Virus record (IMG/VR): IMGVR_UViG_3300045581_000181
Span: 1-21,194 of that record
DNA from: a virus
DNA length: 21,194 nt
Reading direction: 5' to 3' (one strand)
This document shows, in pieces, positions 6,987 to 18,973 of this stretch. Every line of letters starts with the position of its first letter. Position 1 is the first letter of the stretch. The notes beneath the pieces were generated by a model. It was not told where the DNA came from, did no database searches, and worked only from the letters and a program-made list of their open reading frames with translations. Position numbers and translations under genes: made by a program.

Positions 6987-9900
6987 ATGCCACCACCGAC
7001 CGACATACAAACAGAAGCACTTCGTCGTATTGAAACAAGTGTTCTTGGACTACAAGAGGCATCTCTCAATATGACGGCAGTAACCGATGCTGCTCGTAGT
7101 ATCGTAACTGGTCGCATTGGTCTTGAACGCGCTGCCCCTTTGCAAACCATCGCCGATGAGGTGATTGGTGTTGCCAAAAAGCAAGCGCAACTAGAAGCAC
7201 GAACACAACTCAGAGCAGCAGGAAAGAAACTTGATCCTGACACAAAGGCTCGCATATCCGATGCCTTTGATACTGTATCTGAGGCTCTAAAGGACGGAAC
7301 AGACAACGCTGCACAACGAGCGGAACTCATACTTGATGTACAGGCAAAGTATGCAGAGGAACTAACAGACAAGAGACAAGCCAAGATAGTCAAACAGCAG
7401 ATAGCCAATGCAAAGCAACTGCTGCAAACTCAAAAGAAGGCTACTGTTGGATTCTTGGGAGAGATGGTAGAAGACTTCCGCGAAGGCCCTCTTGCAGAGT
7501 TTATCAGCAAAATCGAAAGCAACTATCTTGGAAAACTGCTTGTACGCTTTAGCAAAGATCAGATTGCTGCGGTTCGTGCCCGCAGAGATGCCGAGGTTGC
7601 TGCCGCTGCAAAGCAGGTAGAAGATCAGAGGCGTGCTGCTGCCATTACTAAAGGTAGAGAAGAGGCGCTGTTCAAGATTAAAGAGAACAGCGTCACACAG
7701 GAAGCGTTGAGTCTAAAGGAAAGACTTGCTACTGAAAAGATTCTATTGGACACCGCGAAGGATCGCGGAGAAACCATAGACGAGGGTAGACTCGCTACCA
7801 TTAATGAAAGTCTGGAAAAACTACAGACTTCGTTTACTGCGCGAGCAACGGCGGTTGAGCAAAGAGACAAGGCAGAAAGAGAATACGAACAGATTCTCAG
7901 GGATGATGCATACGCTAACATTGTTGCTGCAAGACAAAGAATACAAGATGCAGGAAGCGACCAGCAACTACGCGCAGAACTTGAAAGACAAGAACAGGCT
8001 CTGTATGTTGGTGAGCAAGGTGAAAGGTATAGAGCGGCGCTTGCAGAGGGAGAGAAACGAAAAGCAGCATTGCTGCAATCTCAAACTCAAGTGGAGCAGC
8101 AATCGAATGTGCTTCAGAGTATGTCAGAAACACAATTCAAGACTCAACTGGTAGAAAAGCAAAGAGCAGGCGAAACTGAAACCGAGTTTGCGGAGCGTCA
8201 ACAAGTAGCGTTCCAACAGTTCAGAAGCGAAGCAACCAAGACTGCTATTGAAGACCTTCAAGAAACAGAAGGAAGCCAATACGCAGAAGTGGGTAAGATG
8301 TACGAGCAGATTCTACAGTCTTTCTCGAACAACATTGCTTTGGAACTGAATGACATTGAGAAGAGCGGTAAACTAAATGAAGAACTAGTCAAGAGACTCG
8401 CTGCTGGCGATATCTCTGTGCAGAGTTATCGAGATGAAGCAAACGCTCTGAAGACTAGAATGGTTGCAGGCCCAAACGCTCAGTCGTATCAACCAATGGG
8501 TACAGGTGGATTCGATAGCGTGGGAGCAGGAGTTGGAGAGACTAGCATTGGTGTCGGAAGCGATCTTTACAATCTGCTTGCTGCTGATCTTCTGTTCCTG
8601 AAGAACTGGTCGAAGATAATTGGAGAACATCAGATTCTTGCTGCCAAAACAAGCAGCATGATGCTTGAGTACTTTAAAGCATTGCTAGACTACTTTGCTT
8701 CTGGTCCGATAGATGTTAGCGTTCACTATGATGAGCGCGGTACTAGAATGTCTGGAGACAGAAACAGAAGGAAGTTTGGCTCTGCTCTAGAAGAGTTGTC
8801 TGCGGGCGACCAGGCTCAGTCGCTTGTAATGCAAGAGAAGACCGCACAGACTGCTGCTGAAAGTTCTAGACTGAGTGCAGCCGAAGTGGATAGCCTAGCA
8901 CAGGTTTCTCCAGAACTAATGTCTCCTGAAGCAATCGCAAAGGCGCGTGCGGGTGATCCAGGCCTGGTTGAAAGACAAAGAGTGTTCGAGCAAGAGATTA
9001 CTCGACTCAACGACATTCTTCAAATGACAAAAGAGGAGCAGAAAACTGCCGTCAAAGACGCAGGGTTCCAATCCGTAGAACAGGTAGAGCAGGCAAAGCA
9101 ACTGCTAGAGCAACAAAGACAAGCAGAAGAAAACGACGCCACGAGAAGCGCGACTCTTCTGAAAGACGGTCTTGGAGCCAGTTCGCCTGGATGGTTGAAG
9201 GATATCAAAGAATACACCTATACTTTGCTAGAGCGAAGCAAAGAGATAGTAACCAACACAGGCACTAAACTACAAGAAACGCTGACTCCAAAGGCCTCTG
9301 AGAAGGCAAAAGCAGCAACCGCTCAGGCTACGGACACCGTGCCGCTACAGACCGCTGCACAAACTACACCAACGCCTGCCGCCGATGCGGCAACCAAAGC
9401 GTCTGAGAAGACTGAAGCGAGTGTTAGCGGTATGGCACCACCAGTTGCTGGTCCTGGTGGAGTTGCTATCTCCATCAATATTGGTGACAAGGTTGGTGGT
9501 ATAGTAAAGGAAATACAAAACAAGGCAACTGAGTTTGGAAGTGTGATTCAGACTCAAGTGCAAGCAGTTGCAGGGCAAGCCACAGAAATAGTTGGAACCC
9601 TGCAAACCAAGACAACAGAATTCGCTACCTCCATATCCAGTAGAATTCTTGCTCCATCTGCTTCTGCTGCACAGACCCAAGAGCAGACTGCAACCGCACA
9701 ACAGCAAGCAACAACACAAGCGGCCAAGGATCAGAAAAAACCAGATCAGAAAATGGGATTCTTGCAGAACCTGTTTGGTGGTGGACTGTTTGACAAGATT
9801 CGTGGAGCGATGGATGCCTTTAAAGGTGGATTCGCAAGCACTCTCAAGGCAATTGGAGAAGGCTTGCAATCTGTGTTTACCGCATTGGGCGATGGACTAA

Positions 9901-12053
9901 AGAAACTCGGCGATCCGCAAGTGTATCAGGGTGCTGTTGCGTTGTTTATGATAAGCGCCGCTCTGCTTGCATTTGCCGCCGCGATGTATGTGTTTGGTCA
10001 AACCAACTGGCTGGGAGCATTGATTGGTATTGTAGTGTTCGCTGCATTCGCTACCCTGTTTGCACTTGCTTCTGTGAAGTTGGCAGCAGTTGCACCTGCA
10101 ATTGCCATAGCAGCAAATGCTTTGCTGCTTGCTACTCTACCGCTGCTTGCGTTTGCTGCCTCCATGTACATTCTTGGGCAGGCCTTGCAGTTGTTCTCTG
10201 AGATTGGTCTGGTTGGAATGCTCTCTGCACTTGGATTCCTGGCAGGACTCGGACTCATTGCACCTCTGCTAGCCGCTGCAGGACCTGGACTGATCGCGTC
10301 ATCTGTTGGATTCCTATTGTTTGGTTTCGCGTTGATATCGTTGGGTCTTGGTATTCAGATGTTTGCCAAGGCAGCACTCAGCACACTACCAGTTGTGTTG
10401 CTGTTGCTGGCTGGACTTGCTGCCATATCGTATGTGTTCATGGCAGCAGTTCCTGCTATTGCAGCGGTTGGTGCATCATTCCTACTATGGGGAGTGTCTT
10501 TGATTGCACTTGGTCTTGGTATTCAGATGTTTGCCAAGGCAGCATTGACCCAACTACCTCTTGTGCTGCTGTTACTGGTTGGTCTTGCAGCGTTTTCGTT
10601 TATGTTCTTGGCAGCAGTTCCTGCCATAGCGGCGGTTGGTGCATCGTTCCTACTGTTCGGTGCTGCTCTGATCGCACTCGGTCTTGGTATTCAGATGTTC
10701 GCTAAGACAGCATTGACGCAGATCGGAATTGTTGTTGCGGCATTGTTGCTACTTGGTCTAGCAGCGGTATTTCTGGCTCCATTTGCACCCGCGATAGCCG
10801 CGGTTGCTATACCGTTGTTGCTGCTTGGTGCTGCTCTGATTGCTCTTGGTCTTGGTTTGACCATGATAGGTCAAGCAGTAAAGTCAATGTCATTCAGCAC
10901 TCTTCCTGCACTTGCTATTGGACTGATGCTATTGGCAGTAGCAGCAATACCCCTTGCAGTTGCTGCACCGTTCTTGATGATTGCTGCTTTGGGAGTGTGG
11001 GCGTTTGGATACGCATTGCAGACTTTGGGAGCAGGCATCGCCGCATTCGATCAAATAGGTACAGGAAACATACTGTCTGTGTTTGCATCTCTAATGATGC
11101 TTGCGTTTGTTGCTCCGTTCTTGCTTGGTGCTAGCCTGGTACTCATGCTTGCAGCGCCTGGATTCTGGGCGTTTGGATACGCATTGCAGTCTTTGGCGCA
11201 AGGCATCATGTCATTCAATGATGTTGGACTAGCAGGTATCCTAGCAACATTTGGTACACTATCCATGATATCCGCAATGGCACCTACGCTGTTCCTTGCA
11301 AGCGTGTTCTTGCTTGCAGCAGCGCCTGGATGGCTTGCTTTCGCTACAGCATTGATGGTATTGGGATACGCTCTTGGATTCTTCACAGAGAATGCAGAAG
11401 GCATACTACCCGCTTTGGCTGCGTTGGCTGGTCTTGCAGCAATGAGTCCGTTCCTAGCAATAGCGGGTATCGGTCTGATGATCGCCGCGCCTGGATTCAT
11501 GGCGTTTGGAGTTGCCATTGCTGTGCTTGGAGCGTCATTGGTGATCTTCGGAAAGGCAATCAACATGATTGCCGAGGGATTGGAAACGCTCGCGGATATC
11601 GTGGGATGGATTCCTCTGATTGCAGTAAGCATCGGACTCATGGTGCTGCTACTGCTGCCGTTGGTTGTTCCCATGCTGATCGTTGCTGCCGCCCTTGCGC
11701 TGTTTGCGTTCTCGTTGATTGCATACGCAAATGCGTTGGGACTAGTAACCCTTGCTCAAGCAAATGCAGCAATTCCTGAGCAAGCGTCACAGTCTCAGGT
11801 CACATACAATGTTGCAGATATGCAGATTGACAATCTGCCCCTGAGTTTCCCTGAGTTCACCATCATTCAACAGTCTGGCAATACGATGGGCGAGGGTGTA
11901 GGTAACGCTGTTGCCAATGTACTGAACTCTGTTATTGCTCCAATCATTGTCGGAGGCGGTGGTGGAGGAAACGGAACAACTGGTCCTATCCGAAACACAG
12001 AGAACACCTTCCGCAGAGTACAAGAACGCTTCTACAATGCCGCGCTGATCTAA
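6987..12053 (+). CDS. Tail tape measure protein, 1688 residues
   Basis: The longest gene in the window, directly after the chaperone frame. Residues 1 to about 480 are charged coiled coil (many EQR-rich helices such as ERQEQALYVGEQGERYRAAL). About 480-780 is mixed helical. About 780-960 is an Ala/Thr/Gln-rich low-complexity linker. About 990-1525 is a long hydrophobic array of 56-residue repeats, for example ALGLGIQMFAKAALTQLPLV. The end is a Gly-rich turn (six glycines) followed by a charged tail. Tape measure proteins span the tail lumen and set its length; their hydrophobic region is thought to help DNA passage through the host membrane. At about 0.15 nm per residue the full protein would correspond to roughly 250 nm, longer than a T4 tail, unless it is processed. 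The start is weakly supported by GGTAAGAG. Confidence 0.85.
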   Translation: MPPPTDIQTEALRRIETSVLGLQEASLNMTAVTDAARSIVTGRIGLERAAPLQTIADEVIGVAKKQAQLEARTQLRAAGKKLDPDTKARISDAFDTVSEALKDGTDNAAQRAELILDVQAKYAEELTDKRQAKIVKQQIANAKQLLQTQKKATVGFLGEMVEDFREGPLAEFISKIESNYLGKLLVRFSKDQIAAVRARRDAEVAAAAKQVEDQRRAAAITKGREEALFKIKENSVTQEALSLKERLATEKILLDTAKDRGETIDEGRLATINESLEKLQTSFTARATAVEQRDKAEREYEQILRDDAYANIVAARQRIQDAGSDQQLRAELERQEQALYVGEQGERYRAALAEGEKRKAALLQSQTQVEQQSNVLQSMSETQFKTQLVEKQRAGETETEFAERQQVAFQQFRSEATKTAIEDLQETEGSQYAEVGKMYEQILQSFSNNIALELNDIEKSGKLNEELVKRLAAGDISVQSYRDEANALKTRMVAGPNAQSYQPMGTGGFDSVGAGVGETSIGVGSDLYNLLAADLLFLKNWSKIIGEHQILAAKTSSMMLEYFKALLDYFASGPIDVSVHYDERGTRMSGDRNRRKFGSALEELSAGDQAQSLVMQEKTAQTAAESSRLSAAEVDSLAQVSPELMSPEAIAKARAGDPGLVERQRVFEQEITRLNDILQMTKEEQKTAVKDAGFQSVEQVEQAKQLLEQQRQAEENDATRSATLLKDGLGASSPGWLKDIKEYTYTLLERSKEIVTNTGTKLQETLTPKASEKAKAATAQATDTVPLQTAAQTTPTPAADAATKASEKTEASVSGMAPPVAGPGGVAISINIGDKVGGIVKEIQNKATEFGSVIQTQVQAVAGQATEIVGTLQTKTTEFATSISSRILAPSASAAQTQEQTATAQQQATTQAAKDQKKPDQKMGFLQNLFGGGLFDKIRGAMDAFKGGFASTLKAIGEGLQSVFTALGDGLKKLGDPQVYQGAVALFMISAALLAFAAAMYVFGQTNWLGALIGIVVFAAFATLFALASVKLAAVAPAIAIAANALLLATLPLLAFAASMYILGQALQLFSEIGLVGMLSALGFLAGLGLIAPLLAAAGPGLIASSVGFLLFGFALISLGLGIQMFAKAALSTLPVVLLLLAGLAAISYVFMAAVPAIAAVGASFLLWGVSLIALGLGIQMFAKAALTQLPLVLLLLVGLAAFSFMFLAAVPAIAAVGASFLLFGAALIALGLGIQMFAKTALTQIGIVVAALLLLGLAAVFLAPFAPAIAAVAIPLLLLGAALIALGLGLTMIGQAVKSMSFSTLPALAIGLMLLAVAAIPLAVAAPFLMIAALGVWAFGYALQTLGAGIAAFDQIGTGNILSVFASLMMLAFVAPFLLGASLVLMLAAPGFWAFGYALQSLAQGIMSFNDVGLAGILATFGTLSMISAMAPTLFLASVFLLAAAPGWLAFATALMVLGYALGFFTENAEGILPALAALAGLAAMSPFLAIAGIGLMIAAPGFMAFGVAIAVLGASLVIFGKAINMIAEGLETLADIVGWIPLIAVSIGLMVLLLLPLVVPMLIVAAALALFAFSLIAYANALGLVTLAQANAAIPEQASQSQVTYNVADMQIDNLPLSFPEFTIIQQSGNTMGEGVGNAVANVLNSVIAPIIVGGGGGGNGTTGPIRNTENTFRRVQERFYNAALI
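9960..11560 (+). repeat. 168-bp (56-residue) tandem repeats inside the tape measure gene
   Basis: GGTCTTGG(T) recurs at 10344, 10512, 10680 and 10848, exactly 168 bases apart, with the first three copies continuing as GGTATTCAGATGTT. GCGTTTGGATACGCATTGCA recurs at 11001 and 11169, again 168 apart. A related pair at 9969 and 10149 is 180 apart. The units thus keep the 56-residue period over some nine copies, with the middle ones nearly identical in DNA, which points to recent duplication. Each unit encodes two hydrophobic helices separated by a Gly/Ala-rich turn. Confidence 0.85.
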
Positions 12054-12204: not shown

Positions 12205-12786
12205 TTACTCTTGATCCAGTTTTAGTTTTGGCAGTCTGCCTGGACGAACCTTAGTTCGCTTCCAACGGCGAGTTCGCTGCATAAGTCTGTACGAGTAGTC
12301 CATGTCAGCAATTTCGCGCTTGTACACCTCAATGTTTACTGGCAATCTATAGTCTTTGATGTACTGTAACGCACGGGCATCAGCATCCAGTTCGCAGACG
12401 CGAACACGATTAAAGATGTCTGTGATCTCGTCTGCGTCCAGTTCTAGTTTTCCGTCAACCCAATCGTCCATGAGTTCCTGTGCGTCATGGCCATTAGGCA
12501 TGGTTGTCACCGTCCACGCAGGATCGTTGAAAAACCATTGACTCATGTGACCAAACTCATGTGCAAGTACTGCAAGCCATTTGCTTCTAGGCCTGCCTCT
12601 TGCTACTGCAAGCACACCTGGCGCTTTGCCATGGGGTGCTGAGAAGTACCCTGCTAGTTCTCCTCGCGGTTCTCCAAGTGCGGTCAGGCTTGCGCCTTTA
12701 CCCCATACCAACTTCACATTAGTAAGTTCGCAACACCGTTTCACTACTTGAAGAAACTCTTGTACTCTACGGTCTGTGGTAGTCAT
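12205..12786 (-). CDS. Putative zinc metallopeptidase (HExxH)
   Basis: A 193-residue soluble protein with the zinc motif HEFGH at 76-80 (LAVLAHEFGHMSQW) and a downstream acidic motif CELDADA at 131-137. E132 or D134 could supply the third ligand, as in gluzincin-like phage and ImmA/SprT-like peptidases. The C-terminus is strongly basic (RRWKRTKVRPGR). The start ATG 12786-12784 is chosen because AAAGGAGAC stands 4-5 bases upstream; an ATG 105 bases further up lacks one and runs into the next gene. The substrate is unknown. No signal peptide is seen, so it would act in the cytoplasm or virion. Confidence 0.7.
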   Translation of the reverse strand: MTTTDRRVQEFLQVVKRCCELTNVKLVWGKGASLTALGEPRGELAGYFSAPHGKAPGVLAVARGRPRSKWLAVLAHEFGHMSQWFFNDPAWTVTTMPNGHDAQELMDDWVDGKLELDADEITDIFNRVRVCELDADARALQYIKDYRLPVNIEVYKREIADMDYSYRLMQRTRRWKRTKVRPGRLPKLKLDQE

Positions 12787-12869: not shown

Positions 12870-13364
12870 TCAAATGTTTTTGGATGCCCACTCTGCAAAT
12901 GTGACATATGGCATTGGCGCCTGATGCTCTTGCACTTCTGGCACATCTACCATGAGTACTTTCACAGAATTGGCGTGCCAGAACCCTATATCCATGCGGG
13001 TGTTGCCACCCATGATACGCATGGCGCCAGAGGCAAATCTCAGAACAATTGGCATTGATGTGGGTTCGCCGTCCACTATGCGCTGCTCAAGGGCCTTTAG
13101 AGTTTTCTCGTTTCGGTACTTGGGATACGAAGCGTATCCTTTGATGAGAGACAGCAGTTCCTTGAAACTGCGTGTACCTGAGCGGTTCTGAATCTTGTCG
13201 TCCATGCTGCGCGTTACCGTGACTACTTTGGCTTTCGCTAACGCTTTCTTGAAGTGTTCCAGCGTGGGCCAGAAGTCACCGTACTCAGGTTCAAGGTGGT
13301 GCTTGTACTCCACATTGTACTCTTGTTCGATGTCTGAAGGGCGTGGTTGAGTCCAGTTTGCCAT
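12870..13364 (-). CDS. ParB-like (ParB/sulfiredoxin-fold) domain protein
   Basis: A 164-residue soluble protein. The C-terminal half contains LEQRIVDGEPTSMPIVLRF, ASGAMRIMGGNTRMDIGFWH and VKVLMVDVP, which follow the ParB-type pattern: a strand, then a G-G-N-[TH]-R-[LM] motif (119-124), a helix, then a strand. In ParB proteins this motif binds nucleotide. Here the domain stands alone without a DNA-binding HTH that I can see. The N-terminal half is unassigned. The start at 13364 (MANWTQPRPS) is favoured over an upstream ATG at 13406 that would overlap the divergent HNH gene. Neither has a good ribosome site. It lies 83 bases upstream of the metallopeptidase, probably in one operon. Confidence 0.55.
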   Translation of the reverse strand: MANWTQPRPSDIEQEYNVEYKHHLEPEYGDFWPTLEHFKKALAKAKVVTVTRSMDDKIQNRSGTRSFKELLSLIKGYASYPKYRNEKTLKALEQRIVDGEPTSMPIVLRFASGAMRIMGGNTRMDIGFWHANSVKVLMVDVPEVQEHQAPMPYVTFAEWASKNI

Positions 13365-13396: not shown

Positions 13397-13687
13397 ATGA
13401 AGACATTCCTACAGTTCATCTCAGAAGCAGATCGGGACTACCGTGCAGAAAGACTCAAACTGTACGGTGGCAAGAATCCCACTCCCAAGCAACTCGCTGC
13501 CCGTCAAAAGAAGGTGAAGCGTGTTCTGGCAAGACGCAAACTGGAACGCGACGGCAAGGTAAGCAAGGGCGACGGCAAGGATGTAGACCACAAGAACGGT
13601 GACGCTCTTGACAACCGCCCAAGCAATCTGCGAGTCATGGATCGTAGCAAGAACCGTGGCCGCGACAACAACAAGTGGAGAAAGTAA
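13397..13687 (+). CDS. HNH endonuclease with capsid-targeting-like N-terminus
   Basis: A 96-residue protein. Residues 1-10, MKTFLQFISE, resemble the T4 capsid-targeting sequence (MKTYQEFIAE in an internal protein) and end in I-S-E, a fit to the gp21 cleavage motif [LI]-x-E. A basic linker follows (QKKVKRVLARRKLE), then an HNH core with DVDHKNGDALDNRPSNLRV at 62-80 (D64-H65 and N77) and SKNRGR at 84-89. The start at 13397 is chosen because it begins with the targeting peptide; an in-frame ATG at 13343 lies inside the divergent gene. It is first in a run of seven overlapping genes. If packaged, the nuclease would enter the host with the DNA. A free-standing homing nuclease is the alternative, but its operon position and leader argue against this. 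Confidence 0.8.
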   Translation: MKTFLQFISEADRDYRAERLKLYGGKNPTPKQLAARQKKVKRVLARRKLERDGKVSKGDGKDVDHKNGDALDNRPSNLRVMDRSKNRGRDNNKWRK

Positions 13688-14739
13688 TGAAGAGTTTCAA
13701 ATCGTTCCTATCAGAAAATGTCAGCAAAGGCGAAGACTACGAGGTAGTCATCGTGAACGCATGGAACTGCAAGCAAGAGAACAAGAAGACCTGCAAGAGC
13801 GGTGGTGCAATACCGATTGCAGTTGGTCGTGCCATTGTTGATTCGCTGGCATCCTATGGATTCAAGAGTGGTGTCGCTACTAGACTAGGTGACGCTTCTA
13901 TCGAAGTGACCCCTGAATGGGCGAAGTACTTTGAAGGTGGAAAGGTTCCTAGCGGCACCAAGACTCCAAAGACAGATGTTATGATTGGTAAGAAGCGATG
14001 CAGCGTAAAGATGGGCGTGGGGCAACTCATGTCTGCTGCAAAGGCTGAAAGCACCGCTACCTTCTACGCTGCCGCCAAAAAGAGCAAAGGCACAAGCGCA
14101 GCGGTTGCAGCAAAGGTAGAAGAGCAGATCAAGAGTCTTGCGAGTTCAACCCTAGCGAAGAAAAAGGGTGAAATCGCTCCGATGATTAAGGCTGGTAAGG
14201 ACGCTGCAATCAATCGTGCCGAAGCAGCGCACAAGGCGCTCATGCAGACTCTGAAAGATGCCTTTGCAAACGATGCAGGGTTTGCTGCTGCCTTCGTACA
14301 CGAAGCAATGAGCGGTGATGTAAAGTTCGGAAAGAGTTCTCTTGCCCGTGCAGAGTACATCCTTTCCACCAATGCAGACGGCAGCAAAGTCAGCGTGTAC
14401 ACCATTGACGATGCAGCGTACTGTGCTGCTGTTGCCAAGAAAGCAAGAGTGCAAGTGCGGTTCAAGACCACCTCTGAGAAAAAGGGTGACAAGAAAACTG
14501 GATACTACCGCTACTGGAGCGTGGTCGCCCTTATCATGGGCAAGATGGAAGAAGAGTTTGCCGCTGCTGGTGATACTCTCACAGAAGGTATACTCACCGA
14601 CATTTGGGGTCGTATCACCGCATTCGTGTCAGAGATATGGAACAGCATCAAGAGTTGGCTCTACGAGTCATGGCAAAATCTCATGGCGTTCCTAGACATT
14701 GATGTGGATGTGGTGTTCGACAACGCTATCGAGTTCTGA
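13687..14739 (+). CDS. Putative head-packaged protein, possible PD-(D/E)xK-type nuclease
   Basis: A 350-residue protein. MKSFKSFLSE at 1-10 is a capsid-targeting-like leader ending L-S-E. The region 94-121, PKTDVMIGKKRCSVKMG then GQLMSAAKAE, has an acidic residue (D97), ten residues later S-V-K108, then Q113 and E121. This resembles a PD-(D/E)xK nuclease core with Ser in place of the second acid. A later segment HEAMSGDVKFGKSS may add an N-terminal-type glutamate. The middle is Lys/Ala-rich helix. The C-terminal 50 residues (GILTDIWGRITAFVSEIWNS, then WLYESWQNLMAFL) form amphipathic, Trp-rich helices that could touch a membrane. TAATG overlap with the HNH gene and GGAG 7 bases upstream support the start. 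The nuclease assignment is tentative; the leader is clear. Confidence 0.6.
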   Translation: MKSFKSFLSENVSKGEDYEVVIVNAWNCKQENKKTCKSGGAIPIAVGRAIVDSLASYGFKSGVATRLGDASIEVTPEWAKYFEGGKVPSGTKTPKTDVMIGKKRCSVKMGVGQLMSAAKAESTATFYAAAKKSKGTSAAVAAKVEEQIKSLASSTLAKKKGEIAPMIKAGKDAAINRAEAAHKALMQTLKDAFANDAGFAAAFVHEAMSGDVKFGKSSLARAEYILSTNADGSKVSVYTIDDAAYCAAVAKKARVQVRFKTTSEKKGDKKTGYYRYWSVVALIMGKMEEEFAAAGDTLTEGILTDIWGRITAFVSEIWNSIKSWLYESWQNLMAFLDIDVDVVFDNAIEF

Positions 14740-14748
14740 GGTGCAACC

Positions 14749-16011
14749 ATGAAGAGTTTCAAAGCGTTCTGCAAGCAACTGGATGAAGCATCGGAGATGA
14801 TGCTTGAGAAGAAGATACTTCTCGGCGGTAAGACTACAACCCAGTATCGTACCCAATACGACCGAGCAAAGAAACAGATGGCTAAGGCGACCAACGCTCT
14901 TGCTCCAGCCAAGCGGAAAGCATTAGACGATCTGTGGTACAACACATTTGGTAAGGTGATGGATCAACTTATTTCAGTCGAATACGGAAGCAGCAAACCA
15001 TCAGATGCCAAAGCAAAGAAACTAGACGCGCTGATAGCAAAGTGGGAGAAAGAGAGCGGGCCGCTGCTTGATGCTGCCAAGAAAAACATGGACGCAGCAG
15101 CAGCAAAGTGGGCGAACGAGAAAGACCCATGCAAGCGCATCTTCCAAAAGACCATATTCCAAGAGATCGTCGGCAGCGAAATAGACACCGACAAGGAAGC
15201 AGACATATGGACACAGGTAGCAGCGTATGTTAGTGCGCCTGGAGACTACGGAGTAGTCAAGAAGGCGTACACCGAACTGCTCAAGTGCAAGGGATCGTAT
15301 TCGCAACTGGAGCCTGGTGTTAAAGCGATCTACCGTGGTATCAATGTGAGTCTAAAGACCGCATTGAAACTGGTCAATATCAGTAAACTCACCGACAAGA
15401 AATCGTCCATGAGTGCTAAGATTGGTCCAAAGCAAATGCTTGGTCACGCAACCAAGTACAGTCCTCGCAAACCTGTTGAGAGTTGGAGTTCCAATCCCAA
15501 TGTCTCCTATGGCTTTGCCTCAGGTGAGAACAGTATGTCTGGTAGTGGATACTATGAGTTCTCGCTCGCAGAACTACGCAAATCAGTAAACACTCTGAAG
15601 CGACTGATAGCAAAGCAACAGAAGATTGCTTCCAAAGAAAAGAAGTCGGAGTGGGACAAAGATGACTTGTATGCAGTCAAGGACGAAATTGCATACGAGA
15701 TTCAAGACTACATCAATGTCTATATGGCATCAGACTCACCTGTTCCAGTTGTGTATCAGATCACTCCCGATAAGTACTGTGTGATGAATCCTCTGTTCTC
15801 AAACAAGATTGGTAATGTGGTTGGAGTTGGTAATGAGTTTGAGGTTACACGCATAGAAACCAATGCAGCGGATGCAACAGTTTGGATTCCTCAAGAAGTG
15901 ATAGACGGTGCGTATCTAGTCGCAGAGATTCAAGACCTCATCAAACAAACAAAGATCAAGACCCCAGCCATTAAGGTTGCAGTACCTGTTAAACTCAAGA
16001 AAGGCCGATGA
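14749..16011 (+). CDS. Putative head-packaged ADP-ribosyltransferase (Alt-like in role)
   Basis: A 420-residue protein starting MKSFKAFCKQLDEASE, a capsid-targeting-like leader with L-D-E at the putative gp21 site. The N-terminal half is Lys/Ala-rich helix. The C-terminal half shows the R-S-E signature of mono-ADP-ribosyltransferases: R196 in AIYRGIN, S245-W-S247 in KPVESWSSNPNVSYGF, and E363-F-E365 in GVGNEFEVTR. An E-x-E pair is typical of arginine-specific enzymes. T4 Alt is a head-packaged ADP-ribosyltransferase that modifies host RNA polymerase immediately after injection; a similar role is inferred here. The target is unknown. GAGGTG stands 6 bases before the start. Its motif PVxSW[ST]xxPxV is shared with the protein at 17296-17979. 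Confidence 0.72.
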   Translation: MKSFKAFCKQLDEASEMMLEKKILLGGKTTTQYRTQYDRAKKQMAKATNALAPAKRKALDDLWYNTFGKVMDQLISVEYGSSKPSDAKAKKLDALIAKWEKESGPLLDAAKKNMDAAAAKWANEKDPCKRIFQKTIFQEIVGSEIDTDKEADIWTQVAAYVSAPGDYGVVKKAYTELLKCKGSYSQLEPGVKAIYRGINVSLKTALKLVNISKLTDKKSSMSAKIGPKQMLGHATKYSPRKPVESWSSNPNVSYGFASGENSMSGSGYYEFSLAELRKSVNTLKRLIAKQQKIASKEKKSEWDKDDLYAVKDEIAYEIQDYINVYMASDSPVPVVYQITPDKYCVMNPLFSNKIGNVVGVGNEFEVTRIETNAADATVWIPQEVIDGAYLVAEIQDLIKQTKIKTPAIKVAVPVKLKKGR

Positions 16012-16012
16012 T

Positions 16013-17299
16013 ATGAAAGCAGCAAACAGTAAAGCAATGCGTAGCGCGGAAGACAAGGTGTTCAAGAACATTTGGTCTTCGGTATATCCAACACCGCGCA
16101 ACTCTGACTACACGAAGATTGTGAATGCTGTTCGTCAGGGTGCTAATGCCCCAGGCAAACTACCACTTGACAAGGCAGCAACAGAACTAGTGCCTTGGGT
16201 TGAGGATGTCACAGCAGAGATTGAGGGTGACGGTGACGCATTCCTGTTCTCTGACTCCGATATACTGGATGTTGCATACGGTGTTGCAGAGCGTCTGCTT
16301 GATGAACTGCGTAAGAAGGGCGTGATTCCAGCCAAGGGAGTACGCGAGGGTAAAGTTCCTGCCAAGAAAGCAGACGACGAGAGCGAAGACACCGCAGAAA
16401 GCGCGGGCAAGTCATTCAAGGATTTCCGCAAGCAACTAGATGAGCAAGTGTACATGGGTGAGACTGACTCGCGTATGTACGGTGACGATAGTGTGCTGAA
16501 GCCAAGCAAGGGAAAACCAAAACCTTGCAAGGGCAAAGACTGCGATAAACCAAAGCCGTTCAAAGGATACGAGGAAACAGAGCAGGAACCAACAGGTCTA
16601 GACGAAGGCGCAGTCAAAGCAGCAATGGAAGATTGGATGTACAGTCTTCCAAAGCCATTGGTAGCAGAGATCAACCGCAAGTACGCAGGTAAACTGAAGG
16701 CGGCAGAACTAACTGGTCTATCGAAAGGTGATCCAGTTCGCAAGGCTCTGATTGCTCTTCTAGACAAATACAAGGTTCCGCCTGCACTTGGAGACACCTC
16801 CCGAGACTCAGACATTTCTGCGCTTGAACTCATGTTCAATTCATTCTTTGGTGAGAGTGTAGAGATGAGCGAAGCAGTAAACTTCGGAACCAATGCCTAC
16901 GAGATTCAGAAATCTGGCTCCAATTGGGAAGTATGGAAACTTTCGTACAGTCAAGGAAGCGTCAGATTCCCCGATGGTCGCAAGGGCACCAAACTCCGTG
17001 GAGATTTCAAGTCACGCGATGAAGCAATGGCGTATGCAAAGAAGGATGCAGGAGTCAAAGAAAGCGTGGAACTAGAAGAAGCCTTCAAGAAGATTGGTGT
17101 TTCTCCTGACGGCAAACCCGTGTACTCCATGAACAACAAGTATTATGTGGTTTCGTATTCGGTGATGGCCAGAGAAACCGCTATCTTTGCTTCCGACCCC
17201 AAAGGCAATGTATCCAAGTGGGCAGATGTGTGGTCACAGAGGGGATTTGTCGATCCTGATAATGCAATGACATCACTAGAGAAGTCGCTAAACAAATGA
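16013..17299 (+). CDS. Multi-module protein with an internal capsid-targeting-like sequence
   Basis: A 428-residue protein of unknown family. Start ATG 16013 directly follows the previous stop; the ribosome site is weak. Residues 1-131 are a helical module ending in an acidic linker (KADDESEDTAESA). Residues 132-144, GKSFKDFRKQLDE, are almost the same as the leader of the preceding gene (MKSFKAFCKQLDE), but no start codon stands there. A Lys/Pro/Cys-rich linker follows (KPKPCKGKDCDKPKPFKGYE). Two similar points, ESVEMSEAV (281-289) and ESVELEEAF (350-358), each precede a small beta-rich module: NAYEIQKSGSNWEVWKLSYS, and KPVYSMNNKYYVVSYS. The layout suggests a fusion of packaged modules or a precursor cut by the prohead protease. 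Confidence 0.65.
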   Translation: MKAANSKAMRSAEDKVFKNIWSSVYPTPRNSDYTKIVNAVRQGANAPGKLPLDKAATELVPWVEDVTAEIEGDGDAFLFSDSDILDVAYGVAERLLDELRKKGVIPAKGVREGKVPAKKADDESEDTAESAGKSFKDFRKQLDEQVYMGETDSRMYGDDSVLKPSKGKPKPCKGKDCDKPKPFKGYEETEQEPTGLDEGAVKAAMEDWMYSLPKPLVAEINRKYAGKLKAAELTGLSKGDPVRKALIALLDKYKVPPALGDTSRDSDISALELMFNSFFGESVEMSEAVNFGTNAYEIQKSGSNWEVWKLSYSQGSVRFPDGRKGTKLRGDFKSRDEAMAYAKKDAGVKESVELEEAFKKIGVSPDGKPVYSMNNKYYVVSYSVMARETAIFASDPKGNVSKWADVWSQRGFVDPDNAMTSLEKSLNK

Positions 17300-17979
17300 A
17301 GCCTGCATCGTTCAGCAAATGGATACATGAGAATTTCGGTAAGGTGTTGTTTGCACCTGACCGAAAAGATGTACCCAAGCCTGCTGAACCGAATACCAAA
17401 GACGAACAGCAAGCATGGGAGGCATTCAAGAAACATTACATCGGAGGTAAGGACGGTGACTTGGTGCGCGCCCTCCCAGATATCCTGGCTGCAAAGCGCA
17501 AAGGCCTGTACCGCGAGTTTCTTGAAGTGCCGTCCACATACAAGTACGCATATCGCCTTATGTCAGACATGACTAGTGCGCTTATGTCTACTGCGGTTGG
17601 TGTGGTTCCAGTAGAGTCTATGTCAAAGGGACAGCGGAACGGAGGAGTCTATCGTCCAAAGCCAGGATCACCAGTTTCATCTTGGACTGTTGAGCCTGCT
17701 GTGGTGTCTAGACTGCTGCAAGACTTTGGTAGCCTGTACCGTAGAAACAAAGACTCATATCACATCTTGCTCGTGGCACAGATTGCTCAGAACCGCGATG
17801 GCTTCATCATCAATCCTGACAAGTACGATGATGTACCAGCAATGGCAGGTCAGTTCTCGTATCAGCGCGAGATCATCTCTGTGAAGCCTATCAAGTTGGA
17901 GCGTGTCATCTACTGCGACAAGGATGAGTTCAACAAAAACGACAAGCAAATCATCGACTGGCTATTGGGGGAGATATGA
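17296..17979 (+). CDS. Second ADP-ribosyltransferase-like protein with capsid-targeting-like N-terminus
   Basis: A 227-residue protein beginning MKPASFSKWIHENFGKV. Residues 1-12 fit the leader pattern with a two-residue insertion and end I-H-E. The rest shows an ADP-ribosyltransferase pattern: R87 in YKYAYRLMSD, S128-S-W-T131 in SPVSSWTVEPAVVSRL, and Q190-R-E192 in FSYQREIISV followed by PIKLERVIYC. A Q-x-E pair occurs in C3-type enzymes that modify asparagine or similar residues, so the target may differ from that of the E-x-E protein upstream. Its start overlaps the previous stop (ATGA) and the next gene overlaps its stop in the same way. Enzyme activity is inferred from three short motifs. 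Confidence 0.6.
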   Translation: MKPASFSKWIHENFGKVLFAPDRKDVPKPAEPNTKDEQQAWEAFKKHYIGGKDGDLVRALPDILAAKRKGLYREFLEVPSTYKYAYRLMSDMTSALMSTAVGVVPVESMSKGQRNGGVYRPKPGSPVSSWTVEPAVVSRLLQDFGSLYRRNKDSYHILLVAQIAQNRDGFIINPDKYDDVPAMAGQFSYQREIISVKPIKLERVIYCDKDEFNKNDKQIIDWLLGEI

Positions 17980-18551
17980 AGAAACTACGAGTATTTGACT
18001 TTGACGATACGCTTGCGCTCACGGATAGTGCTGTTCGTGTGTTTCGCGGCAATGAGTTTGTCCGTAACTTGTCTTCTGAAGAGTACAAGCACTACAAACT
18101 CAAGGACGGTGAGCGATTTGACTTTGATGCTTTCGACAAGATCATCAATCCAAAGGTGATTAAACCCACGATGGCTGTGCTGCGTAAGGTACTTGGTAAG
18201 CCAAGTCCTGCCATGATCCTTACTGGTAGAGGCAAAGCAGAACCCATACGAGATTGGTTGGCAACCATCGGAGTCAAAGTGGAAGAGATAGTTGCACTCG
18301 GTAGAACCGTCAGTAACACTAGCGGTCTTGCAGCGGCCAAGCGTAAGTGGATTGCAGACGCCATCAAGCGAGACGGCTGGGAGTTCGTTGAAGTGTTCGA
18401 GGACAGCAAAGAGAATCTTGCTGCCATGGAATCTCTGAAGAGCGAGTTCCCTGATGTGAAATTCGTGTTGCGGTATGTGGGACACTACGCAGAGAAGATG
18501 AAGGAAGGCAGAGAACTTTTCCGCTTTGGATCGTGGTTAATGGAGGCATGA
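17976..18551 (+). CDS. HAD-superfamily phosphatase (Swiss-army-knife/PNKP-like type)
   Basis: A 191-residue soluble protein with HAD motif I VFDFDDTLA (nucleophile D8, D10), motif II ILTGRGKAEP (T83), a Lys-bearing segment AKRKWIADAI (K122-K124 area) and motif IV VEVFEDSKENL (E142, D143). This set matches the HAD phosphatases seen alone or in RNA repair fusions, and the phosphatase part of T4 polynucleotide kinase. Nucleic acid 3'-phosphate removal is the likely type of reaction, but the substrate is not shown. GGGGGAGAT gives a strong ribosome site, and the gene is coupled to the one before by ATGA. It has no capsid-targeting leader. Confidence 0.72.
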   Translation: MKKLRVFDFDDTLALTDSAVRVFRGNEFVRNLSSEEYKHYKLKDGERFDFDAFDKIINPKVIKPTMAVLRKVLGKPSPAMILTGRGKAEPIRDWLATIGVKVEEIVALGRTVSNTSGLAAAKRKWIADAIKRDGWEFVEVFEDSKENLAAMESLKSEFPDVKFVLRYVGHYAEKMKEGRELFRFGSWLMEA

Positions 18552-18973
18552 TGTACGAGTACAGAATCGTTGGCATACCCAAAGTAATCGACGGCGACAC
18601 CCTAGATGTGGTGTTTGATGTTGGATTCAAGATACACACATGGGAGCGTTGTCGTCTTCTAGGCATAGACGCACCCGAGAGCAGAACCACAGACCTGAAA
18701 GAGAAGCAGTACGGTATCGCTGCCAAGCAGTTTGTTGAAGACTGGCTCAAGCGACATCCAAATCTGTGGGGTCGAACCACCAAAGACGACAAGTACGGGC
18801 GTATGCTAGTTGAAGTGTTTGCAGACGGGTTCGGTAGTTCCCTCAATACCGTCATGCTCACAGACGGATACGCATGGTCGTACTTGGGTGAACACAAGAC
18901 CAAAGACTTTCAGCAACTAGACGAGCGACGCGCGGCCGCTGTCAACCGTTTCAGCGCGCCCGAAGCATCTTGA
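18551..18973 (+). CDS. Staphylococcal nuclease-like (thermonuclease) protein
   Basis: A 140-residue protein made up of one SNase domain. The active-site residues are all present: KVIDGDTLDV (D14, D16), RCRLLGIDAPE (R35, D40, E43) and KYGRMLVEVF (R84), followed by the usual ADGFGSSLNT and GYAWSYL. The family cuts DNA and RNA with calcium, leaving 3'-phosphates. No signal peptide is present, so it would work inside the host cell. GGAGG at 18542-18546 fits ATG 18551 better than ATG 18548 or GTG 18533. The gene directly follows the HAD phosphatase, a functional match (3'-phosphate maker and possible remover). Its last 23 bases overlap the convergent glycosyltransferase gene. Confidence 0.85.
   Translation: MYEYRIVGIPKVIDGDTLDVVFDVGFKIHTWERCRLLGIDAPESRTTDLKEKQYGIAAKQFVEDWLKRHPNLWGRTTKDDKYGRMLVEVFADGFGSSLNTVMLTDGYAWSYLGEHKTKDFQQLDERRAAAVNRFSAPEAS

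Follow-up and report, generated by a model that had tools for sequence, protein, structure and literature searches.

Leader peptides on a run of genes in a T4-like phage fragment: probable virion cargo with nuclease and ADP-ribosyltransferase-like members

Why should neighbouring genes of a phage, each for a different protein, begin with nearly the same short peptide? The question is raised by a run of plus-strand genes in the virus record IMGVR_UViG_3300045581_000181, which was analysed over its whole length of 21,194 bases (the window). The window is, judged from its gene content, a fragment of a T4-like myovirus. Matches to PHROG families include a RuvC-like resolvase and, among tail and neck proteins of the T4 type, the baseplate wedge, tail tube cap, head closure, DNA end protector, tail tube and baseplate hub. 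One tail protein places the closest annotated relatives among T4-like phages, most of them aquatic, at about 28% identity or below. The gene run very probably encodes virion cargo of this myovirus, which would be tagged by the leader peptides and enter the next host with the DNA. Loci of the viral collection with which the window was compared are given L-numbers (254 in the set).

Leader peptides in the gene run

The five genes that carry the peptides are listed below (aa, amino acids; a slash marks the expected cut).

13397..13687, + strand: HNH endonuclease, 96 aa; leader MKTFLQFISE/A (13397-13426); Pfam HNH_3, E 1.3e-9
13687..14739, + strand: putative PD-(D/E)xK-type nuclease, 350 aa; leader MKSFKSFLSE/N (13687-13716)
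14749..16011, + strand: ADP-ribosyltransferase (ART)-like protein 1 (ART1), 420 aa; leader MKSFKAFCKQLDE/A (14749-14787)
16013..17299, + strand: multi-module protein, 428 aa; internal leader GKSFKDFRKQLDE/Q at residues 132-144 (16406-16444)
17296..17979, + strand: ART-like protein 2 (ART2), 227 aa; leader MKPASFSKWIHE/N (17296-17331)

The first-pass annotation had reported leaders at 13397, 13687, 14749 and 17296 and inside the gene at 16013, in consecutive and coupled genes, and both statements were confirmed. The genes are tightly packed: the HNH and nuclease genes are joined by TAATG (13685-13689), the next gaps measure 9 and 1 nucleotides (nt), and ATGA overlaps at 17296, 17976 and 18548 continue the run. 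That survey of the window had overlooked one further site, a C-terminal core (F-G-S-W-L-M-E-A) in the gene for a HAD-like phosphatase. An N-terminal leader is present on four genes, and the gene at 16013 and the HAD gene have none.

The leaders were scored in a strict T4 register (aromatic residues at positions 4 and 7, [LIM] at 8 and E at 10) and in a flexible form. Two of the 21 window proteins show the strict register (0.0019 expected when residues 2-30 are shuffled) and four show the flexible form (0.046 expected); the observed count, strict or flexible, was equalled in 0 of 20,000 shuffles. The exact T4 pattern is found on the HNH and nuclease leaders, the ART1 leader has three extra residues and the ART2 leader is shifted by two. 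Mutational work on T4, as cited in PMC9026906, assigned targeting mainly to residues 4 and 7 and processing to residues 8 and 10, with the cut after [LI]xE. These key positions are the ones kept in the window leaders, which counts in favour of capsid targeting. A change of E10 to D in T4 stops the cut while packaging still takes place.

Relatives, cargo turnover and the virion

Two syntenic relatives of the window have been identified. L014 contains the same tail block and metallopeptidase, followed by cargo, and L254 is the second. The HNH orthologues of L014 and L254 begin with MKTFFQFISE/V and MKTFFQFISE/A, respectively. The L014 nuclease is 70% identical to that of the window and has the leader MISFKSYLYE/A, the L254 nuclease begins with MKSFKSYLSE/A, and nuclease homologues in HTVC008M and Melnitz show 34-41% identity. 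When four nuclease leaders (MKSFKSFLSE, MISFKSYLYE, MLSFTGYSNLSE and MQGFKTFLSE) were aligned, F4, L8 and E10 were invariant and the other letters varied. The ART1 orthologue of L254 (53% identical) has the canonical leader MKSFLSFISE/A, as against MKSFKAFCKQLDE/A in the window. Across the orthologues, leader positions 4, 7, [LI] and E are kept and the remaining residues differ.

This conservation bears on another explanation, in which the HNH gene merely encodes a common mobile endonuclease, the nuclease gene is selfish or serves replication, and both acquired their leaders by chance. HNH genes are common as mobile elements of phages, and GC1453 of S-SM1, which resembles the nuclease by eye, has no leader. 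Nevertheless, the HNH leader and gene stay linked in L014 and L254 (HNH 89% identical) and the nuclease leader is retained in HTVC008M and Melnitz despite the low identity given above, so that a chance origin is extremely unlikely.

The proteins behind the leaders are less stable. The ART2 gene is missing from the corresponding place in L254, and the cargo behind the nuclease in L014 is a different protein of 690 aa; because the leaders are retained in both relatives, the leaders stay while the cargo turns over.

A back-translated pattern, MK[ST..]FxxF[ILM]xEA, was scanned over the viral collection. At least 120 stretches match it, and of the matches listed whose locus includes a stop codon, 97% open a reading frame of at least 80 residues. 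Another 38 open reading frames in the loci begin with MKxFxxF[ILM] and were not selected by E10; E stands at position 10 in 31 of them, including the window's two. Over 21 phage records a leader pattern gave 40 matches and the reversed pattern none. Because the leader itself had led to many of the records, the reversed pattern, and not the raw count, is the fair yardstick. One of the 40 matches, in HTVC008M, lies antisense in a structural gene and was taken as chance. A scan with E at position 9 was discarded as a clean control, since 60 of its 89 distinct hits, among the matches listed, also have E10. Clustering of the mature parts gave at least 56 groups without detectable similarity behind the leader (254 loci). 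The Pfam domains found there include HNH_3, CTP_transf_like, ADPrib_exo_Tox, AAA_33, DPBB_1 and GNAT, with NUDIX in L003. The match in L152 to ADPrib_exo_Tox (E 3.7e-13) means that a recognised ADP-ribosyltransferase domain rides on the leader.

To our knowledge, GC190 of S-SM1 is the only leader-bearing protein with published virion detection. GC190 begins with MKKFSAFLNE/A and its S-SM2 counterpart with MKSFFQFLSE/A; according to PMC3037559, GC190 was detected by mass spectrometry in purified S-SM1 virions. The leader also co-occurs with the prohead protease in related genomes. The gp21 protease is encoded by S-SM1, HTVC008M and Melnitz, whose major capsid proteins have a similar site where the propeptide is expected to end (ILTE/T, FLGE/I and FLSE/A, respectively). 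Peptidase_S77 (gp21-type) was found in 8 of 8 checked T4-like records of at least 141 kb, and a 415-kb record without the leader pattern has no Peptidase_S77 either. The capsid-targeting function proposed in the first-pass annotation is well supported by orthologue conservation, by the at least 56 cargo families and by leader-bearing GC190 in virions.

It is very unlikely that the N-terminal peptide is some other signal (e.g., one with an anti-host or a membrane target) or that an amphipathic start happens to resemble the T4 leader. The peptide is short, its last residues vary, and ART1 and ART2 are off the strict register; however, the position-specific conservation agrees with T4 mutagenesis, E10 recurs in the unselected reading frames counted above, a leader-bearing cyanophage protein is present in virions, and the cleavage-like site resembles the gp23 site of the group.

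In the proposed mechanism, the leader would dock the cargo protein onto the scaffold core during prohead assembly, and a gp21-type prohead protease would cut after [LI]xE. The freed enzyme would remain in the head among the DNA and enter the next host cell along with it, where host DNA, host proteins or defence systems would be the immediate targets of the HNH and PD-(D/E)xK-like nucleases and of the ADP-ribosyltransferase-like enzymes. Some cargo appears to be fused into chains with a leader kept at the joint, and the same protease would split the modules. The leader would be a plug-in address tag, and cargo genes could therefore be gained, lost and exchanged behind it.

The peptides may also be real packaging tags of proteins that act in the head or in its assembly (as scaffold filler, in DNA condensation or in the control of head size) and not as effectors in the next host. 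The T4 core proteins gp22, gp67 and gp68 are likewise cut by gp21 and mostly lost (PMC9026906), and an injected activity of the window proteins is something we infer. The cargo, however, has enzyme domains (HNH_3 here; elsewhere NUDIX, ADPrib_exo_Tox, AAA_33, GNAT and CTP_transf), its rapid turnover between near relatives suits an arms race, and the T4 internal proteins (IPs) and Alt, which bear such leaders, are injected. A role confined to the head is improbable.

Several points weigh against virion cargo delivered to the next host. No prohead protease, scaffold or capsid gene was found in the 21-kb fragment or in the partial contigs of the closest relatives; as the capsid block is missing from the window and from its near relatives, all of them fragments, the protease of the window phage is not seen. 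ART1 and ART2 have no Pfam match, PDB profile searches with their alignments gave nothing credible, and their AlphaFold models are poor (pLDDT 43 and 42, respectively). Their leaders also depart from the register, with three residues extra before LxE in ART1 and the shift in ART2. No experimental precedent for an internally placed targeting leader was found in the literature searched. Finally, many of the records behind the counts had been found via the leader itself.

Beyond the window, it is an evenly balanced possibility that T4-like phages of aquatic bacteria have a general system of protein delivery by one short tag, with dozens of exchangeable enzyme cargos and with polyprotein chains whose repeated internal leaders enable the prohead protease to load several effectors per gene.

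Probable cargo enzymes and fused proteins

The first-pass annotation had named two nuclease-like proteins. The first is firm: HNH_3 (PF13392) scores 38 bits against a curated cut-off of 24.8, and the HNH identity is certain at the profile level. The second is recognised by its motif. The 350-aa protein has no Pfam match, and a PDB profile search with its alignment gave nothing credible. The alignment of four sequences contains an invariant KTPKTD...S-x-K-x-G; D97 and S106-x-K108 are unchanging, and this motif pattern suits a PD-(D/E)xK nuclease. An LxE site is also present about 50-55 residues before the C-terminus in 4 of 4 nuclease homologues (LTEG, LTEG, LHEG and LTEI), and it possibly marks a C-terminal propeptide as in T4 Alt.

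ADP-ribosyltransferases of the R-S-E class are marked by an R on the first strand, an S motif and a [QE]xE motif. ART1 contains the invariant R196-G-I, S245-W and E363-x-E365-V-T-R across the window, L254, L003 and L004. Homologues of ART2 were found in L003 and L004 (50%) and in L005 (34%), with YKYAYRLM, SWT and Y-Q-x-E invariant; the corresponding invariant residues are R87, SW129-130 and Q190xE192. At the motif level both proteins appear ADP-ribosyltransferase-like by the R / S / [QE]xE pattern. The earlier naming of two such proteins holds for these motifs, and profile or fold support was not obtained. In a tblastn search of 50,697 phage records no match was found for ART1, ART2, the multi-module protein or the L254 orthologue of ART1. 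A relation of ART1 to another leader protein was considered and dropped, as the profile comparison aligned the leader alone; comparing the profiles of ART1 and ART2 yielded no match. The ART2 homologue of L005 (L005:7817-9148) lies behind a different N-terminus, MPSVRRVAARYREAM, on a contig without a Gp23 or S77 match, and this N-terminus may be the leader of another head system.

Two more genes continue the run behind ART2.

17976..18551, + strand: HAD-like phosphatase, 191 aa; PHROG 415, E 3.7e-11; ends on the leader-like core FGSWLME/A (18525-18548)
18548..18973, + strand: Staphylococcal-nuclease-like protein; Pfam SNase, E 7.5e-15; no leader; closes the overlapping run and is not claimed as cargo

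The internal motif that had been noted in the fifth gene (at 16013) is present, and relatives show that it is a leader caught where genes were fused. The counterpart of GKSFKDFRKQLDE is EGKRFADFRKQLDE/Q in L254, internal and at the same place, and MSNINKSFRDFRKKLDE/QVY in L014, near the N-terminus. Additional [LM]xE/A sites are found between the modules of the window protein. A mis-called start was rejected as the source of its internal leader, as no nearby in-frame start codon precedes it and L254 keeps the fusion.

Internal leaders in fused proteins sit exactly at the joint of two cargo proteins that are found separately elsewhere. The fused protein of L207 (462 aa; L207:5181-6566) matches the separate leader protein L022 over residues 1-254 (55%), and its residues 247-462 match the separate leader protein L048 (72%) from the third residue of the latter. 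The match of L211 to L110 (39%) begins at residue 2 of the free protein, and in L003 a NUDIX protein continues, from the leader onwards, into a paralogue of its neighbour (36%). The narrow motif K[ST]FxxF[LIM]xE gave eight hits beyond residue 60, two of which are mis-called starts, against about 0.05 in shuffles; a loose internal motif was not above chance (12 against 8.8). We infer that cargo genes fuse while keeping the second leader and that the prohead protease could free the modules. The first leader may do the targeting in fused chains; the window multi-module protein has no N-terminal leader.

The HAD protein ends with FRFGSWLMEA in the window. Its L254 orthologue (75%) reads LRFGSWLSE/A at this point and continues for about 90 more residues, because of which the window protein looks like a fusion whose second part was lost or never acquired. 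In L085 a HAD homologue begins with a leader, MKSFKDYLIEE. The L022 protein (L022:2677-3564) similarly ends shortly after a leader-like EGKNFAQFMLE, and both it and the window HAD look like fusions minus the downstream cargo. An internally repeated protein of 610 aa in L164 (L164:2888-4717) starts with MKTYQEFISE/A, one letter from the T4 leader MKTYQEFIAE, and has VELEESS and ELEESS sites at its repeat borders.

Known leader systems and neighbouring sequences

It is established that T-even phages use such a leader to pack a variety of internal proteins (Repoila et al. 1994, as cited in PMC12373910; PMC9026906). The T4 proteins IPI, IPII and IPIII (Mullaney and Black 1996, as reviewed in PMC9026906) are alike in their ten-residue leader, key positions 4 and 7, [LI] at 8, E10 and the LxE cut, and with them, too, a single leader precedes non-homologous cargo within a variable region. 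Their cargo consists of small inhibitors of type IV restriction enzymes (PMC12373910), whereas the cargo described here is larger and includes enzymes, and some of the leaders lie inside fused proteins. T4 Alt is an injected ADP-ribosyltransferase with a propeptide cut by gp21, and it is cut near the C-terminus too (PMC9026906); unlike Alt, ART1 and ART2 have no detectable sequence relation to known ADP-ribosyltransferases and stand as two in one operon.

Phage ADP-ribosyltransferases and Nudix proteins have been predicted to ride in the head (PMC9503650), as here; that prediction argues from MuF/portal fusion or gene neighbourhood, whereas the processing leader provides gene-by-gene evidence. 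Polyvalent proteins (PMC5512222) are multi-domain phage proteins thought to be injected, as is proposed here for the multi-module protein; unlike in these, the module joints bear leaders of the prohead-protease type, suggesting cutting into separate proteins. The cyanophage protein T4-GC190, a cytidylyltransferase reported from the S-SM1 virion in PMC3037559, has the same type of leader and other cargo.

A 2022 review (PMC9026906) suggested that T4-like phages may use the leader to pack proteins of various kinds. No description of the leader across aquatic T4-like phages, of this enzyme set or of leaders at fusion joints was found in the literature searched, which included few subscription journals. 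The T4 system is known; new relative to that literature are the enzymes carried as cargo, the breadth and the leaders inside proteins.

The same tag is present on dozens of unrelated proteins in aquatic T4-like phages, and probably injected proteins can therefore be predicted from sequence. If this is true, the genomes of a very abundant aquatic phage group could be read directly for effectors delivered by the virion, mostly in genes annotated as 'hypothetical', which would give a list of first-minute anti-defence and takeover proteins. It would account for an enzyme such as the cyanophage cytidylyltransferase in virions and suggest multi-cargo designs, taken from nature, for bringing proteins into bacteria. 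What T4-like phages inject besides the IPs and Alt, a question of long standing, would become directly testable.

The T4 late-promoter sequence TATAAATA occurs at three sites in the window against 7.9 expected, with no enrichment, and scans for sigma-70 promoters and terminators were at chance level. Two genes on the minus strand are divergent to the cargo operon. The gene at 12205-12786 encodes a zinc-metallopeptidase-like protein (LAHEFGH), and its position is kept in L254 and L014. The gene at 12870-13364 encodes a ParB-like protein and is kept in position in L254; its start is probably 13364 (MANWTQ) rather than 13406, and about 32 nt then separate the divergent starts. A tape-measure-like protein of 1688 aa with long alternating hydrophobic repeats and no PHROG match is encoded at 6987-12053.

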